Source: Kordia periserrulae
GTDB taxonomy: Bacteria > Bacteroidota > Bacteroidia > Flavobacteriales > Flavobacteriaceae
Length of the DNA: 64,000 bases
Assembly: GCF_003054265.1 (NCBI RefSeq)
Contig: NZ_QBKT01000012.1
Location: 1 to 64,000 of the forward strand
Direction: 5' to 3'
Positions 11,483-55,470 of this stretch are shown here, piece by piece. The notes below the pieces were generated by a model. That model ran no database searches and was not told the origin of the DNA. It worked only from the letters and a program-made list of their open reading frames with translations. How positions within the stretch are numbered: position 1 is the stretch's first letter; each line of letters starts with the position of its first letter. The position numbers and the translations under genes are program-made.

Positions 11483-12912
11483 TAGTTCTTCTTTACAACC
11501 CAATCTTCAATATCCATCGGCACTTTTTTGTTGCGGTATAGTTTTAGAAACGCTAGCATGTTTTTCGCGATAAATTTGGGTTGCATCTGTGGTTGTATCA
11601 AAATAACTTGACCAACAAAACCTTCTTTTCCGGGTGAAAAATCCAATGCATATTTATATGAGTTGTCTGCGTAAAATAGTACCCAATGCGGACTTCTGCT
11701 CGCAGGCAGTAATCTTTTATCATCTACATTCGCGTTTATAGTAAGCTTTTCCATACCAGCAGTTTCATATTCTTTATTCATATTTTCCATACGCCCATGT
11801 AACGAACGCCAATTAAAAAACGGCCCGTTTCCATCATACAACTCCAACATAGCAAACATTTCATCTGGAACATTTCTTCCAGCTTCTAAGACAAACTGAC
11901 ATTCATACTCCACACGTTTTGAAAAGGATGCTTTTTTAAATCGATAGCCAAAACTGAATTCCTTAGTAACATCCATCAATGCTTTTTTCAACGCTGCGGT
12001 ATCGATTGTTGATGATTCTGTTACCGTTTTCGTATTTTCCAGCATCATTTTCCGCTTTGCATCTCTGTCTTTAAAATTATAAACGCTACTATTTGCAAAC
12101 CTGTCTTGACTGTAAAAACTATACATTGGCACAGAATATTTATATTCAGTACTGTATGATTGGTTTGGAGTGTGTACTATTTTTAATGTGCCATTTTCAA
12201 ACAACGCTATATAATAGTCGAAATCTTTGTTTGGATAGGTTTCTATAATTTTATTTTTAAAATCATTAATCAACATACATGCTAAAGCATCTTTTGTGTT
12301 CTTCTTTTCTTGTATATCAATCAAAAGCAAAAGTCTGTTTGTAGATTGCTTTATTTTGGAAAACAAGGCAACGTTAGAAGCGTCTACATTATAGTTGGAG
12401 AATGGAAAATCTTGTTTCAACATGTATGAAATGGAGTCTGTTTCCATATTTGGTGTAATCGCCAAACTTTTTTTATCAGTTAGATACGCGTCTTTGTATG
12501 TCGCTAACTCAGCTTCTTTTCGTTCCTCTTCTTTTTCGTATGCTGCATCTTCTTTGGCATTTTCAAAATACATATAACCGTAAAAAAACACTAACGACAA
12601 AACTTTGTATGCAATGAACGCAGGAACAATAAAATGCCAAAAAGGTCGCCTAACAGGCTGTTCTTTCAATGCTCTTTTAATGTCTTCAGGAAAGTTTTTC
12701 TTACCATTATACGCCTGACCGCAATGCGTGCATTCTGCATAGAGTCGTTTAGCAAGCGGAATTACAGGAATCCAAAACAAGTGGAAATAACTGGCTTCTC
12801 CAGAAACTACAAAAGAACTTTTTCGTTGACAGTTGGAACAAGAGGTATTTGCGTTGAGACGTTTTTCTTTGAGTTTAGAATCGCGTACTCCTAAGATTAA
12901 AAAGTATGTCAT
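11482..12912 (-). CDS. Zinc-ribbon membrane protein of unknown function
   Basis: The 476-residue protein begins MTYFLILGVRDSKLKEKRLN, followed by a zinc ribbon with CSNC and CTHC pairs (about residues 24-65) separated by YFHLFWIPVIPLAKR. This matches the Bacteroidota zinc-ribbon-15 type. A single membrane segment at about 90-118 is followed by a charged coiled stretch (AKEDAAYEKEEERKEAELATYK) and a large domain of unknown fold. The ATG at 12912 is preferred over one at 12936 because it begins the conserved family motif. No operon partner is evident. The stop codon shares its last base with the MITE-like element. Confidence 0.72.
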   Translation of the reverse strand: MTYFLILGVRDSKLKEKRLNANTSCSNCQRKSSFVVSGEASYFHLFWIPVIPLAKRLYAECTHCGQAYNGKKNFPEDIKRALKEQPVRRPFWHFIVPAFIAYKVLSLVFFYGYMYFENAKEDAAYEKEEERKEAELATYKDAYLTDKKSLAITPNMETDSISYMLKQDFPFSNYNVDASNVALFSKIKQSTNRLLLLIDIQEKKNTKDALACMLINDFKNKIIETYPNKDFDYYIALFENGTLKIVHTPNQSYSTEYKYSVPMYSFYSQDRFANSSVYNFKDRDAKRKMMLENTKTVTESSTIDTAALKKALMDVTKEFSFGYRFKKASFSKRVEYECQFVLEAGRNVPDEMFAMLELYDGNGPFFNWRSLHGRMENMNKEYETAGMEKLTINANVDDKRLLPASRSPHWVLFYADNSYKYALDFSPGKEGFVGQVILIQPQMQPKFIAKNMLAFLKLYRNKKVPMDIEDWVVKKN

Positions 12913-12936
12913 AAATATGCAATGAGTAGATACCAA

Positions 12937-13156
12937 ATCTACCTTTTTTTATTCTGAAATACAATCCACAGGCTTTGATACAGAAATTTTCAGCGAAACT
13001 ATTTTCAATCTTACACTTTATATCTAAGATGATTTTTTTTTGTTAAATACTCAATTTTTACAGCCTGTTTCTATAAATTTTACTAGCATTGTAGCACAAC
13101 TTTGATAAATAAATAGACTTCTATCTAAACTTTTTATGTAATTAATTTCAAAATGT
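12937..13156. other. AT-rich intergenic stretch
   Basis: This is the upstream part of a 414-bp gap between the zinc-ribbon gene and the next long reading frame. It is very AT-rich. It presumably contains the promoter of the minus-strand zinc-ribbon gene, but I could not find a convincing TTG/TAnnTTTG pair in either direction. No RNA gene was recognised. Confidence 0.4.
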
Positions 13157-13249
13157 ATGAGTTTATTTAGCTTGCTATTTTTAAGCATTATCATTATTTG
13201 TTTTTCATATCTTGTTGACTATCTTGTTTCAATAAAAAAAGAAAAATAA
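13157..13249 (+). CDS. Possible 30-residue hydrophobic peptide
   Basis: A small frame reads MSLFSLLFLSIIIICFSYLV followed by DYLVSIKKEK. This is one membrane helix with a basic C-terminal tail, the pattern of small single-pass membrane proteins. It is followed 17 bp later by a clean intrinsic terminator (13267-13293) that otherwise has no gene to serve. The alternative is a chance frame inside a short non-coding transcript. There is no homology evidence. Confidence 0.35.
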   Translation: MSLFSLLFLSIIIICFSYLVDYLVSIKKEK

Positions 13250-13266
13250 AACGAACAAAATTTAAT

Positions 13267-13293
13267 AAAAGGAACTGCATAGTTCCTTTTTTT
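13267..13293 (+). terminator. Intrinsic terminator without an annotated long gene
   Basis: A perfect 10-bp stem, AAAAGGAACT / AGTTCCTTTT, with loop GCAT is followed by more T. On the plus strand it can only serve a short transcript starting after lysS and its own terminator. This supports a small gene or RNA at about 13100-13266. Confidence 0.8.
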
Positions 13294-13326
13294 GTACTTT
13301 TAAAATTGAGAAAAATCAGATAGCTT

Positions 13327-14241
13327 TTGAAACGCTCCCGACGCTCAGAATACGACAAAAAACGAAATCGCTCCAAGAAACACTCGGAGCGAAAGTTTCA
13401 CTTTTCCACAAAAACGGACAAAACTGCATCGCGTTCAAAAGCAAAATCGACTTCAAGTTCAAGTTCAGGTTCAAACGCTATTGACCGACTTAAAGGTTTC
13501 GAAATCAACGAAAATCACGAAAAAAAATACAAAAACAGAACTGTCAAACCGAAAAAGAAAACAGACTTTTCAGGCTTGAAAGCGTTTGTCATTTTTGGAA
13601 TTCTCGCATTTTCAATCATACGTCTTGTGGTTAATTTGACCAGTTCACAAACTCAGAGTACACCATCAATCACGCAAGATAAAGCACTAGAAAGAATTCT
13701 TCAAGAAACAAAAAAATTTCGCGAAAACATAAGTGTCAGAACCACCGATTTTATTGTTGGCAAGAACAAAAATATCCGAGAAGTTACGCAACTATACAGA
13801 GATTCTACACTTCCCGTTCTTGAACACGTTACTATACGATTGTTCGAAAAATTTCATATGTATGACACTTCGCCTTTTCCAAATACAGAAGTTTTAGCCA
13901 AGTTCAGCAAATATTACTTTTTTTATGATCGTGTTGAAAAATCGCCCAACATGTCTATGAGCAAGCAATGGGAACAACTACGAAATACCATCGCAAATAA
14001 CGTTACCACATGTGTTGTCGTACTAGAAAAAGGGAAAAATCGCACCTACAAAAACATGGAGATTGAAGAAATTGATTTTAAAATTTTATACAATGGCGCC
14101 GAACTTCACGGCGTCGCAACGTTGATTGCGTTTGAAAACACACGCCACTTTTTCCAGTTCTTTTCCAGAGAAAAACAAGCAGCACATTTTAGACGAAATT
14201 ATCTTAGAAAATACTTAGATTACTATTTGAAGATTCGTTGA
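13327..14241 (+). CDS. Hypothetical membrane protein with basic N-terminus
   Basis: The 304-residue reading frame has no ATG in its N-terminal half. A stop at 13321-13323 and a TTG at 13327 make TTG the only start that covers the whole frame. The N-terminus is strongly basic and Ser-rich (KRSRRSEYDKKRNRSKKHSE, then SSSSSGS). One membrane helix follows at about 87-107 (LKAFVIFGILAFSIIRLVVNL), then an alpha/beta C-terminal domain with a long helix (KALERILQETKKFREN). A later TTG just before the helix is the alternative start. No family is recognised. It converges with the next minus-strand gene, with only 7 bp between them. Confidence 0.6.
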   Translation: MKRSRRSEYDKKRNRSKKHSERKFHFSTKTDKTASRSKAKSTSSSSSGSNAIDRLKGFEINENHEKKYKNRTVKPKKKTDFSGLKAFVIFGILAFSIIRLVVNLTSSQTQSTPSITQDKALERILQETKKFRENISVRTTDFIVGKNKNIREVTQLYRDSTLPVLEHVTIRLFEKFHMYDTSPFPNTEVLAKFSKYYFFYDRVEKSPNMSMSKQWEQLRNTIANNVTTCVVVLEKGKNRTYKNMEIEEIDFKILYNGAELHGVATLIAFENTRHFFQFFSREKQAAHFRRNYLRKYLDYYLKIR

Positions 14242-50387: not shown

Positions 50388-51461
50388 CTAAACATCAAAA
50401 TCGACCACGACTTTTTCTGTGGTTGGAACGGCTTGGCACGACAATACCAATCCGCTCGCGAGTTCTTCTTCAACGAGTGCATAGTTGATTTTCATTTCTA
50501 CAGCACCTTCTAGCACTCTACATTTACAGGTACTACACACGCCACCTTTACAGGCGAACGGCAAATCGGCTCCTGCTGCCAATGCGCCATCGAGGATGTT
50601 ATCGTATGCGTCTTCCATGATGAAATGAAATTCTTTTCCGCCATCGACAATTGTTACATCGGTACCGTCGACTTTATGTTCTAACGCTTGTGCAATTTGC
50701 GCATCATTTGCTTTTTTATCGCCAGAGAAAAATAGTTCGTAATGAATGTTTTCTTTAGGCAATCCGGCAGCTTCCAATTCGTCTCTGATGAGGAAAATCA
50801 TTTCTTCTGGTCCACAAATAAAACAATCTGCCGTATCATCCACGTCAATGAACATTTTGGTGAGTAATTGAATTTTTTCTGGAGTAAATCGCCCGTTTAA
50901 AAATTCGATATCACGTTGCTCTTTTGTCAAGAAATAGAAGATATTGAAACGCTCTAAGTATTTGTTTTTCAACTGTTCTATCGCTTCTTTAAAGATAATG
51001 GATTTTACGGTGCGATTCAAGTAAAATAACTTGAAAGTACTTTGTGGCTCTGCTTCTAAGTGTGTTTTTATGATGGAAAGCATCGGCGTTATTCCACTTC
51101 CTGCCGCAAATGCGATGTAATTTTTCTTTGCATTCGGATCAACTTCTACGAAAAAACGACCTGCTGGCACCATTAATTCGAGCGTATCGCCTGCTTTTAA
51201 TTCGGTATTGGCATAGGTAGAAAATCTCCCGCCTGGAATTTGTTTTACAGCGACTTTCCATTCGCCATCAATTGGACTGGAGCATAACGAGTACGACCTG
51301 CGTACATCTTCGTCGTTGATGATTTTGCGCAAAGTCAGATATTGTCCTTGCTTGTATTGAAATTCTTTTTTGAGATTTTCGGGAATGTTGAGTGTGATTA
51401 CCGTACAATCTGAAGTCTCTTTGTACACGTCTGCGACTTCAATTTCATGAAACTTTGCCAT
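50388..51461 (-). CDS. paaE: PaaE, epoxidase reductase
   Basis: PaaE passes electrons from NADPH through FAD and a 2Fe-2S cluster to PaaA. The 357-residue chain has the FAD-binding RRSYSLCSSP and the NAD(P)-binding FAAGSGITPMLSIIKTHLEA and FICGPEEMI. The C-terminal plant-type ferredoxin has CKGGVCSTCKCRVLEG and the distant Cys in VLSCQAVP. ATG 51461 begins the conserved MAKFHEIEV; an upstream start at 51494 would place coding sequence over the operator. The promoter and palindromic operator are just upstream. Confidence 0.96.
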   Translation of the reverse strand: MAKFHEIEVADVYKETSDCTVITLNIPENLKKEFQYKQGQYLTLRKIINDEDVRRSYSLCSSPIDGEWKVAVKQIPGGRFSTYANTELKAGDTLELMVPAGRFFVEVDPNAKKNYIAFAAGSGITPMLSIIKTHLEAEPQSTFKLFYLNRTVKSIIFKEAIEQLKNKYLERFNIFYFLTKEQRDIEFLNGRFTPEKIQLLTKMFIDVDDTADCFICGPEEMIFLIRDELEAAGLPKENIHYELFFSGDKKANDAQIAQALEHKVDGTDVTIVDGGKEFHFIMEDAYDNILDGALAAGADLPFACKGGVCSTCKCRVLEGAVEMKINYALVEEELASGLVLSCQAVPTTEKVVVDFDV

Positions 51462-51482
51462 GCAATTTTTAGTTATTTTACA

Positions 51483-51513
51483 CAAAACTAACAATTGTTA
51501 GTTTGACTTGCAA
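51483..51513 (-). promoter_or_regulatory. paaE promoter overlapped by PaaR-type palindromic operator
   Basis: On the minus strand TTG (51513-51511), a 20-bp spacer and TAGTTTTG (51490-51483) form a Bacteroidota promoter. Over it lies a perfect 20-bp palindrome at 51485-51504, AAACTAACAATTGTTAGTTT. Its core CTAACAATTGTTAG fits the pattern CNAACGNNCGTTNG that I recall for Thermus PaaR, except the inner G/C pair. A repressor bound here would cover the -7 box. The TetR gene at 51914-52492 is the obvious candidate. Confidence 0.75.
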
Positions 51514-51556
51514 CTAAATTTTTGTTAAATAGTACATATCAGTCATTTACATAAAA

Positions 51557-51584
51557 AAAAGAGCGCTTATATAAGCACTCTTTT
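51557..51584. terminator. Terminator of the GG-leader peptide gene
   Basis: AAAAGAGCGCTTAT and ATAAGCACTCTTTT pair over 14 bp with one mismatch, ending in T on the minus strand. It lies 27 bp after the stop at 51611 and upstream of the paaE promoter, so it separates the peptide gene from paaE. Confidence 0.8.
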
Positions 51585-51610
51585 CTCTGTTTTGTGATAT
51601 TAAAAATTAT

Positions 51611-51790
51611 TTAAACACAAGTTCTATCGCATGTATGTTCGCAAGTATTGCCTTCACAAGTAAGACAAGTTTGCTCTTCTACACATGAGTTACTTCCTGG
51701 CGGAGGAGGCGGTCCACCAGCAACAATAGCATTTAGTTTTGAGATACTACATTTTTTTAATCTCAAAACGTTCATAGGTTCTCTTTTCAT
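51611..51790 (-). CDS. RiPP-like precursor peptide with GG leader and Cys-rich core
   Basis: The 59-residue peptide has leader MNVLRLKKCSISKLNAIVAGG (from an inner Met; five more residues from ATG 51790). The core begins PPPPPGSNSC and continues as CVEEQTC, TCEGNTC, EHTC, DRTCV: six Cys, five of them preceded by Thr and one by Ser. The leader pattern LxLKKxSISKL...GG matches the Bacteroidota natural-product precursor type (GG-Bacteroidales family) and the two peptides at 54950-55398. No modifying enzyme, peptidase or transporter is nearby. It has its own promoter and terminator between the TetR gene and paaE. Confidence 0.8.
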   Translation of the reverse strand: MKREPMNVLRLKKCSISKLNAIVAGGPPPPPGSNSCVEEQTCLTCEGNTCEHTCDRTCV

Positions 51791-51823
51791 TAAGTCTTTG
51801 GGTTTTTTAAATTAAATTCAATG

Positions 51824-51855
51824 CAAAGATACGTAAGATTAACCTTGTTAATCAA
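51824..51855 (-). promoter_or_regulatory. Predicted promoter of the GG-leader peptide gene
   Basis: On the minus strand TTG (51855-51853), a 21-bp spacer and TATCTTTG (51831-51824) fit the Bacteroidota pattern. The spacer holds an inverted repeat, GATTAAC-CTT-GTTAATC (51837-51853 as read on the plus strand), a possible operator. Confidence 0.65.
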
Positions 51856-51913
51856 TGGCTTTCCAATACATTTGTTAATCAAAAACTATAGAATCTTTAC
51901 AGATTTCCCCTAG

Positions 51914-52492
51914 TTATGCCGTAACGCCTGTAAGCAATACGTGACTTAATTTTCCTAGCAAATCTTGCTTTATGATTTCATCTTTTTTAGGAATCCAAAG
52001 GTATAAGGAGCGTAGTGTGGAAAGAATGGAAAATAGAATCACTTCAGGGTTTACGTCTTTAATTTCTCCTTTTGCAATGCCTTTTATTAATATTTGACGA
52101 AAGCTTTCTTCATAGTTTCGCCGTAACTGCAAGTAGTAATCGAGTTTTTCTTCTAAGTGCATCCAATCGTTGTTCATGGTTGCCATTCGGGAAGGATTTT
52201 CCATCGTAATTTGCACATGCAGTTTGATGATTCGCTCCAATTTTTCAATACTTGTCGCTTCTTCCATCGCAACGATTTCTGCCATTCCTGCGGTAAATTG
52301 TTCACCAATTTTCATGATGATATCCGCCAAAATTTCCTGTTTGGATTGAATGTGATTGTACAAACTTGCCGCTTTAATTCCCATAGCTTGCGCAATGTCG
52401 CGCATGGTTACCGCGCTGTAACCTTTCTTTTTGAAAAGCAATTCCGCAGTTTGTACTATTTCTTCTTTCCGTGTTGTTGGTTTTTGCGCCAT
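51914..52492 (-). CDS. TetR family regulator, probable PaaR-like repressor
   Basis: The 192-residue protein has a TetR N-terminal helix-turn-helix (EEIVQTAELLFKKKGYSAVT, then MRDIAQAMGIKAASLYNHIQ) and a helical ligand domain rich in aromatic residues (NNDWMHLEEKLDYYLQLRRN). ATG 52492 (MAQKPTTRKEE) is preferred; ten more residues are possible from 52522. It lies upstream of the paa genes on the same strand and diverges from the aromatic amino acid hydroxylase gene. By analogy with Thermus PaaR the ligand would be phenylacetyl-CoA; this is inference from context and the operator. Confidence 0.88.
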   Translation of the reverse strand: MAQKPTTRKEEIVQTAELLFKKKGYSAVTMRDIAQAMGIKAASLYNHIQSKQEILADIIMKIGEQFTAGMAEIVAMEEATSIEKLERIIKLHVQITMENPSRMATMNNDWMHLEEKLDYYLQLRRNYEESFRQILIKGIAKGEIKDVNPEVILFSILSTLRSLYLWIPKKDEIIKQDLLGKLSHVLLTGVTA

Positions 52493-52555
52493 GGTAGCAA
52501 CTTTTTTATGGTGAAGATACATATTTTATGAAATACGTTGAATTTCTACATTTTC

Positions 52556-54949: not shown

Positions 54950-55147
54950 CTAATACGTTCCACAATTACAATAGGAGGCAAATGTTTGACAGCCTGTTGC
55001 ATTCGTATTACAATCTGCACCTTCCGTATCTGGTTCTGGACAAATAATTCGGCTATCATAGGTATTTCCTCCTTTTACAGATAGATTTTCTAAAATTGAA
55101 ATTGAACTTTTTCGTAGTTGTAAATTTTTTAAACTTTTCTTTTTCAT
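54950..55147 (-). CDS. RiPP-like precursor peptide with GG leader (second)
   Basis: The 65-residue peptide has leader MKKKSLKNLQLRKSSISILE then NLSVKGG, and a core starting NTYDSRIICPEPDTEGADC and ending QTFASYCNCGTY, with five Cys and several Thr/Ser. The L.L.K.SIS.L......GG leader is shared with the peptides at 51611 and 55225. ATG 55147 is chosen; a longer frame from 55195 adds a non-leader segment. It is 77 bp after the third peptide gene on the same strand, so they are probably one unit. No maturation genes are in view. Confidence 0.8.
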   Translation of the reverse strand: MKKKSLKNLQLRKSSISILENLSVKGGNTYDSRIICPEPDTEGADCNTNATGCQTFASYCNCGTY

Positions 55148-55224: not shown

Positions 55225-55398
55225 TTATCTTTCTCTTGGACATGGAGGACAATCTGTTACAGTTACATTACACCAACACGAGCCAGCCAATCCTGTACAC
55301 AATGCTGTGTTGTTTCCTCCTTTAATTCGTGCTGCTTCGTTTAAAACGGACACAGAATTTTTGTTTAAGTGTAAATTTTTGATTCCTTTCTTTTTCAT
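55225..55398 (-). CDS. RiPP-like precursor peptide with GG leader (third)
   Basis: The 57-residue peptide has leader MKKKGIKNLHLNKNSVSVLN then EAARIKGG, and a core beginning NNTALCTGLAGSCWCN and ending DCPPCPRER, with five Cys. The leader aligns with the neighbouring peptide (MKKK..KNL.L.K.S.S.L......KGG), while the cores differ completely. This is the usual sign of a precursor family processed at the GG by a Cys-peptidase transporter. It lies downstream of the GSCFA gene and its terminator. Confidence 0.8.
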   Translation of the reverse strand: MKKKGIKNLHLNKNSVSVLNEAARIKGGNNTALCTGLAGSCWCNVTVTDCPPCPRER

Positions 55399-55445: not shown

Positions 55446-55470
55446 CAAAAAGTACGGTTTTCCCGTACTT
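55446..55470 (-). terminator. Terminator of the GSCFA gene
   Basis: AAGTACGG / CCGTACTT with loop TTTTC, followed on the minus strand by T-rich DNA, lies about 30 bp after the stop at 55503. Confidence 0.8.

Follow-up and report, generated by a model that had tools for sequence, protein, structure and literature searches.

A 59-residue reading frame on the minus strand of Kordia periserrulae (51611-51790 of the 64,000-nucleotide window, the whole stretch of DNA that was analysed) encodes a Gly-Gly leader joined to a Cys-rich core, raising the question of whether it is a working RiPP precursor gene and which enzymes could act on its product. The frame is flanked upstream by the gene of a TetR-family regulator (51914-52522; PF00440, PF17932) and downstream by that of a PaaE-like reductase (50388-51461; FAD, NAD and 2Fe-2S domains, the name being taken from a preliminary description of this DNA), all three on the minus strand. 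That description had called the peptide an orphan and had noted no LanB/LanC, radical SAM or peptidase-transporter gene in the window, which holds more widely, as no LanB, LanC, C39 or SPASM match occurs on the whole contig (C12).

Re-reading of the frame (translation MKREPMNVLRLKKCSISKLNAIVAGG / PPPPPGSNSCVEEQTCLTCEGNTCEHTCDRTCV) bears out its earlier reading as an open reading frame with a GG leader, five Pro at the start of the core and six core Cys, each behind Thr or Ser. The leader (residues 1-26; 51713-51790, minus strand), delimited by orthologue alignment and a profile match (hhalign) to sibling precursors, contains an LxLxKx5L motif (L9, L11, K13, L19) and ends in VAGG (Gly25-Gly26). 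The core (33 residues; 51614-51712, minus strand), delimited from the sequence and orthologue alignment, begins Pro5-Gly-Ser-Asn-Ser-Cys and continues with five Thr-Cys pairs, and its 6 Cys and 7 Ser/Thr at spacings of 3-6 would be capable of ring formation. Thr or Ser directly precedes 6/6 core Cys, an arrangement found in about 1 in 100,000 core shuffles (p about 1e-5). The 59-residue precursor and its sibling at 54950 have no Pfam match, and no relative of the precursor with a solved structure was found.

Homologues in related genomes, about which the preliminary description had asked, are present. Among 11 Kordia genomes searched, its own included, orthologues (E <= 0.001) occur in nine of the other ten, and seven named records encode the peptide, all from Kordia (K. 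jejudonensis, K. aestuariivivens, K. zhangzhouensis, K. algicida, two uncultured Kordia and one metagenome-assembled Kordia). In the 9-row orthologue alignment, from which the diverged copy of genome G007 was left out, residues M1, K2, L9, R10, K13, S17, L19, A24, G25, P27, P28, P30, P31, G32, S33, N34, C36, T41, C42, T44 and C50 are invariant and position 11 is L or F; the invariant set includes 3 of the 7 core Ser/Thr (S33, T41, T44) and 3 of the 6 core Cys (C36, C42, C50). The Gly-Gly pair is replaced by GN in G004 and by GL in G007. Codon comparison of 28 pairs from eight genomes (truncated G002 and diverged G007 dropped) gives a mean pN/pS of 0.31 overall, 0.40 for the leader and 0.25 for the core, so that the core is under tighter constraint than the leader. 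The G002 copy stops after CVTCKDLACN with the last Cys pairs missing, while G003 retains the TetR-paaE interval from which the gene is gone. Lost in one genome, shortened in another and otherwise conserved, the gene is thus useful but dispensable. Orthologues, purifying selection and a kept terminator rule out a chance ORF, and by these comparative measures the frame at 51611-51790 is a real, conserved gene.

The terminator proposed in the preliminary description is upheld by folding. The T-tailed hairpin at 51553-51588 (minus strand) folds at -18.5 kcal/mol against -5.9 for shuffles (z = -5.7), and a T-tailed hairpin of 10-16 pairs lies 3' of the gene in 10/10 orthologous loci with base changes that keep pairing. 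A simple scan (sigma-70 promoters and a stricter hairpin rule) lists 0 promoters and 0 terminators between 51000 and 52400, and no Rfam element lies in 51400-52000. Both elements of the promoter first read as TTG-N21-TATCTTTG are present on the minus strand (51855-51824), with the -33 TTG (51853-51855) lying 21 bases before the -7 box (51824-51831), which is of the Bacteroidetes type, and TAnnTTTG is exact in 6/10 orthologous loci (G000, G006, G005, G010, G004 and G002). As a promoter common to all siblings TAnnTTTG was rejected, being not enriched (19/147 precursors versus 20.4 in shuffles), while with TTG 18-22 bases ahead it occurs at 6/147 versus 1.65. The 17-bp inverted repeat GATTAAC-N3-GTTAATC described in the promoter spacer (51837-51853; with up to 2 mismatches allowed, the window would be expected to hold 0.49 matches) is present in the K. 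periserrulae genome but absent from the other nine orthologous loci; private to one genome, it is ruled out as a conserved operator. The neighbouring TetR finds no support as regulator of the precursor: the AACTAACAATTGTTAGTT palindrome precedes paaE, not the peptide.

Seen across the genome, the peptide is no orphan, since at least 148 leader-profile matches, one LanB/LanC locus and five C39 matches over cut-off accompany it elsewhere. Searching the genome with the 59-residue precursor gave 16 matches, itself included, the rest weak; from an 11-row alignment (A1) drawn from these matches a leader profile was built that finds at least 148 places at E <= 1 (150 of 203 candidates scored), 147 of them with an ATG start. 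The family is spread over 14 contigs and 104 sites (neighbours within 1 kb pooled), 75 of the sites being single. Two siblings overlooked in the preliminary description lie in the same window, 3.2-3.6 kb from the 59-residue precursor (65 residues at 54950-55147 and 57 residues at 55225-55398, both on the minus strand and located by the leader profile). Leaders are closely alike within the family and cores wildly different. The exact LxLxKx5L motif is found in 79/147 ATG-starting precursors, and a GG end in 139/146 siblings with a recognised cut; Cys is present in 144/146 cores (median 4) and makes up 11.7% of core residues versus 0.1% of leader residues. T-tailed hairpins lie within 110 bases past the stop of 69/147 precursors, versus 0-1 in five mononucleotide shuffles. 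Before the start codon the 147 precursors show a strong consensus of an A-rich block at -11 to -13 and A-T-C/T at -3 to -1. In addition, three otherwise different cores of this genome (C4:416953, C2:89790 and C8:183752) carry a near-identical end, NDSCxSxCxxxCNDF, which looks like an exchange of core ends.

Against the 146 siblings the 59-residue precursor alone aligns with an hhalign probability of 96.3%, and the profile of its orthologues, with the precursor itself left out, with 97.9%. NF038153 (class I lanthipeptide leader L1a, lant_leader_L1a) matches 97/146 siblings at E <= 0.1, with 4.4e-6 as the lowest value, though not every one reaches its 22-bit cut-off (one sibling row scores 16.5 bits). 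At E <= 10 it also matches 5/9 aligned orthologue rows weakly (0.021 for the best of them), and the 59-residue precursor itself has no match to it at that limit. NF038158 matches 12 of 146 siblings. TIGR04149, the model favoured in the preliminary description, matches 7/146 siblings at E <= 0.1 and not the 59-residue precursor. By these scores NF038153 is the model fitting the relatives of the precursor. The accessible part of PMC7268733 assigns the LxLxKx5L leader, often with a Gly-Gly end and a cluster-encoded C39 protease, to a number of class I precursors from Bacteroidetes. The preliminary view of a genuine GG-leader RiPP-type precursor, from a known natural-product family and with an unusual core, thus survives. 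Pro after GG is seen in just one other of the 146 family cores, and in no other of the 119 family cores with at least 3 Cys is each Cys preceded by Thr or Ser; the core is extreme for direct Thr-Cys neighbours, and so atypical of its family.

The candidate enzymes are encoded on a contig other than that of the window. The genome's only Lant_dehydr_N protein (C7:159909-161879) marks a LanB + LanC locus (C7:158646-161879; Lant_dehydr_N and LANC_like matches), where it is surrounded by a TPR protein, LANC_like, LanB-C (PF14028), HlyD and two TPR proteins with an AraC-type helix-turn-helix. The locus also contains a 735-residue C39-ABC exporter and a sigma-70-region-2 protein (25.7 bits, cut-off 24), and three leader relatives, of which two are weak matches (E 0.02 and 0.001), lie within 6 kb of LanB. 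The genome-wide search outlined in the preliminary description, for similar leaders, for LanB/LanC and for a C39 transporter, therefore finds all three, with none of the five C39 matches over cut-off on the window contig. Directly before the LanC-LanB genes (L034:7057-8420), the sigma-70-region-2 and TPR proteins may control them. LanC-like proteins are also found in other settings. On C1 a lone LanC, with no LanB next to it, adjoins two precursors of the LxLxKx5L type (C1:236881-237441); a transglutaminase-like protein lies with them (L037:7620-10344), and the two precursors are similar, their core ends being nearly identical. Immediately upstream of the class II LanM (DUF4135 + LANC_like) lies a GG peptide of its own, 64 residues long and of a different kind (L035:7717-10858, C2). 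On C10, LANC_like, HopA1-family and APH-like proteins lie side by side (L036:8856-12250) with a long Thr/Cys/Pro-rich frame adjoining at 12445-13386; this set resembles that of class V lanthipeptides.

The association of leader and LanB extends across the genus. Exactly one LanB is found in each of the 11 Kordia genomes, and 103 to at least 150 leader-profile matches (E <= 1e-4, not checked frame by frame) in each of the ten other Kordia genomes. LanB occurs in 10 of 120 genomes drawn evenly from the Flavobacteriaceae, K. periserrulae included. The leader profile was run on 39 of 129 drawn genomes (K. periserrulae not counted), of which the 29 outside Kordia comprise 9 with LanB and 20 without (3 of the 20 under 90% complete), and there it matches 2/9 LanB-positive genomes (12 and 1 matches) and 0/20 LanB-negative ones. 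As seven of the nine LanB-positive genomes outside Kordia are without leader matches, LanB does not imply an LxLxKx5L leader. The co-occurrence is support, not proof, of a functional link, being confounded by genus-level kinship.

The family cores provide a further clue. Across 146 cores, Ser/Thr is over-represented at 3, 4, 5 and 6 residues before Cys relative to shuffled cores (1.35, 1.28, 1.64 and 1.29 fold), with ratios of about 1 at 7-8, 0.89 at 1 and 1.03 at 2. The opposite order, Cys then Ser/Thr, is depleted at 1 and 3-8 (0.54-0.92; 0.64 to 0.92 at 3-8 alone) and enriched at 2 (1.46). Rings closed between Ser/Thr and a Cys further on would produce such a spacing, and a composition gradient along the core could contribute to it. 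In the 59-residue precursor each Thr of a Thr-Cys pair is followed by the next Cys at a distance of 4-6 residues, which would permit ordinary overlapping rings despite the atypical core; the compatible pairs (core numbering) are Ser7-Cys10, Thr15-Cys19, Thr18-Cys24, Thr23-Cys28 and Thr27-Cys32, at distances of 3, 4, 6, 5 and 5.

A subset of the precursors shares an upstream palindrome. TACGG-N5-CCGTA (0 or 1 mismatch) is found upstream (-110 to -30) of 29/147 precursors, mostly 65-90 bases before their starts, versus 2/147 downstream and 14/1470 random stretches. The 23 exact sites in the genome (versus 3 for the reversed control) divide into 13 upstream of LxLxKx5L precursors, 5 before a GG family beginning MLKN/MLQS and 5 elsewhere, one of the last inside a long coding frame. 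With a weight matrix built from these 29 sites, which are included in its counts, 36/147 precursors score 8 or more versus 0.6 in shuffles. Within the window an exact copy (55453-55467, minus strand) precedes the sibling at 55225-55398. The copy at the 59-residue precursor (51854-51868, minus strand), located with the weight matrix and the orthologous loci, is degenerate, with 4/10 arm bases differing, and weak (shuffle p 0.083). The site reads TAnnG-N5-CCnTn in 9/10 orthologous loci; the best match lies at -72 to -78 in 9/10, with p below 0.05 in 7/10, these loci being related and not independent. In other Kordia genomes the palindrome with one mismatch lies upstream of 4/14 siblings, orthologues of the 59-residue precursor not counted. 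The MLKN.../MLQS... family, small and GG-leader-like with Cys-bearing cores, lies directly downstream of the palindrome at L122, L124 (two sites), L087 and L041, its member at L041 beside a protein with a C39 match.

Taken together, the published LxLxKx5L leader, the at least 148 siblings, the one LanB locus with siblings and exporter, the genus-wide co-occurrence and the core spacing argue for modification in trans by class I enzymes, while orthologue conservation, selection and the kept terminator argue for a working gene. We thus propose, with a probability of roughly 0.66, that the gene encodes a working class I lanthipeptide-type precursor, probably on its own small transcript, which is modified in trans by the single LanB/LanC and exported via C39. 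Following transcription from a predicted start, the LxLxKx5L leader would be recognized by the genome's single LanB, whose glutamylation and elimination halves are split, and which would dehydrate core Ser and Thr; the adjacent LanC would then add Cys thiols to form overlapping (methyl)lanthionine rings. The C39-peptidase ABC exporter would cut the leader at or near Gly-Gly, upon which the product would leave the cell. These enzymes would serve nearly 150 scattered substrates, the 59-residue precursor among them. Counting against this proposal are the NF038153 miss, the Pro after GG, the GN and GL orthologues, the LanC-only neighbours, the four SPASM proteins and the lack of enrichment of direct Thr/Ser-Cys in the family, as well as the 7/9 LanB genomes outside Kordia without the leader, the G003 loss, the early end in G002 and the absence of promoter and terminator from the simple scan.

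The gene could instead encode a genuine RiPP precursor served by another maturase, either one of the four SPASM radical-SAM proteins of the genome or a LanC-only route as at C1:236881-238825, leading to other thioethers or other chemistry. One SPASM protein is directly beside a C39 exporter (C2:611620), the same leader type adjoins the lone LanC, and TIGR04149 recognizes a few siblings; in the accessible part of PMC11118758, moreover, a cluster predicted to be rSAM-modified co-localizes with class I lanthipeptide enzymes, and misclassification is called an issue. The window contig, however, holds no SPASM match any more than it holds LanB, LanC or C39, a listed leader relative lies within 5 kb of just one of the four SPASM proteins (C5:280722) versus three within 6 kb of LanB, and the spacing of Ser/Thr before Cys suits lanthionine rings, making another maturase unlikely in our estimate.

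Modification might also be absent altogether, the GG leader serving C39 export only and the Thr-Cys repeats forming disulfides or binding metal in a secreted Cys-rich peptide. The six core Cys would suit such a role, and the MLKN... family shares the palindrome and has a GG leader with no maturase linked to it. LxLxKx5L, however, exceeds a plain GG signal in both length and specificity and is common to the LanB-adjacent precursors, and across the nine orthologue rows core Ser/Thr (3/7 invariant) is about as conserved as Cys (3/6); an unmodified product is in our judgement improbable. That the gene is a decaying former precursor kept by chance, as its loss in G003 and truncation in G002 might suggest, is very improbable given the core pN/pS of 0.25 (28 pairs, 8 genomes) and the terminator hairpin in all ten loci.

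The class I reading places the precursor close to, and partly apart from, described systems. In the accessible text of PMC7268733, the Bacteroidetes class I LxLxKx5L precursors (NF038153) resemble it in leader motif, Gly-Gly, Ser/Thr/Cys-rich core and the genome's split LanB (as in pinensin), LanC and C39 exporter, but it differs from them in lacking an adjoining modification enzyme, in its Pro5 core start, in the Thr/Ser before every Cys and in having no NF038153 match. The prochlorosins and synechococsins (ProcM/SyncM), as far as the consulted parts of PMC10783134 and PMC9872173 describe them, are like the proposed Kordia system in that a single enzyme serves dozens of precursors scattered over the genome of a marine bacterium, with 79 putative precursors in one Synechococcus versus at least 148 profile matches in K. 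periserrulae; unlike the Kordia set, with class I LanB/LanC and a short LxLxKx5L leader, they use a class II LanM and Nif11-type leaders. With its LxLxKx5L leader the 59-residue precursor does not fit the LanM-modified, Nif11-type prochlorosins, and the genome's LanM has its own GG peptide. Pinensins and the class I lanthipeptides of Pedobacter lusitanus are Bacteroidetes class I products as here, pinensin being cited for its split LanB, and have been described as clustered genes; in the accessible parts of their accounts no dispersed precursor set was found, unlike in Kordia.

The richness of Kordia in RiPPs is itself already published, as far as the available parts of the literature go: up to 176 precursors per Bacteroidota genome are predicted by TrRiPP with Kordia a named example, and for precursors with no enzyme nearby, the use of distant or tolerant enzymes like ProcM is suggested (PMC11118758), while a lanthipeptide cluster is listed in K. 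antarctica (PMC7477175). The accessible part of the TrRiPP account (PMC11118758) gives counts and selected clusters, among which the single-LanB set, the palindrome and the 59-residue precursor gene were not found, and a search of titles and abstract openings (covering few subscription journals) returned no paper on a single LanB with over 100 dispersed precursors. Measured against these partial sources, the 59-residue precursor adds a member to a leader family already described, and the arrangement around it is a new variant. The system as a whole may be a class I counterpart of the prochlorosin system, a proposal we hold at even odds, in which one split LanB and one LanC would act in trans on about 150 scattered, mostly single precursors whose cores are hypervariable. 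The operator TACGG-N5-CCGTA would tie together about one in five of these and the second GG family, and the 59-residue precursor would be a genus-wide conserved member.

Should some 150 substrates indeed depend on a single set of class I enzymes, that set would amount to a natural library maker distinct from the ProcM family, of value in engineering and in understanding how LanB and LanC tolerate such diverse cores, and the common palindrome would give a handle on the timing of library production. The genus-wide conservation of the 59-residue precursor would suggest a fixed task rather than diversification, and a core kept across the genus in a family of very different cores would be a good candidate for learning what these peptides do.
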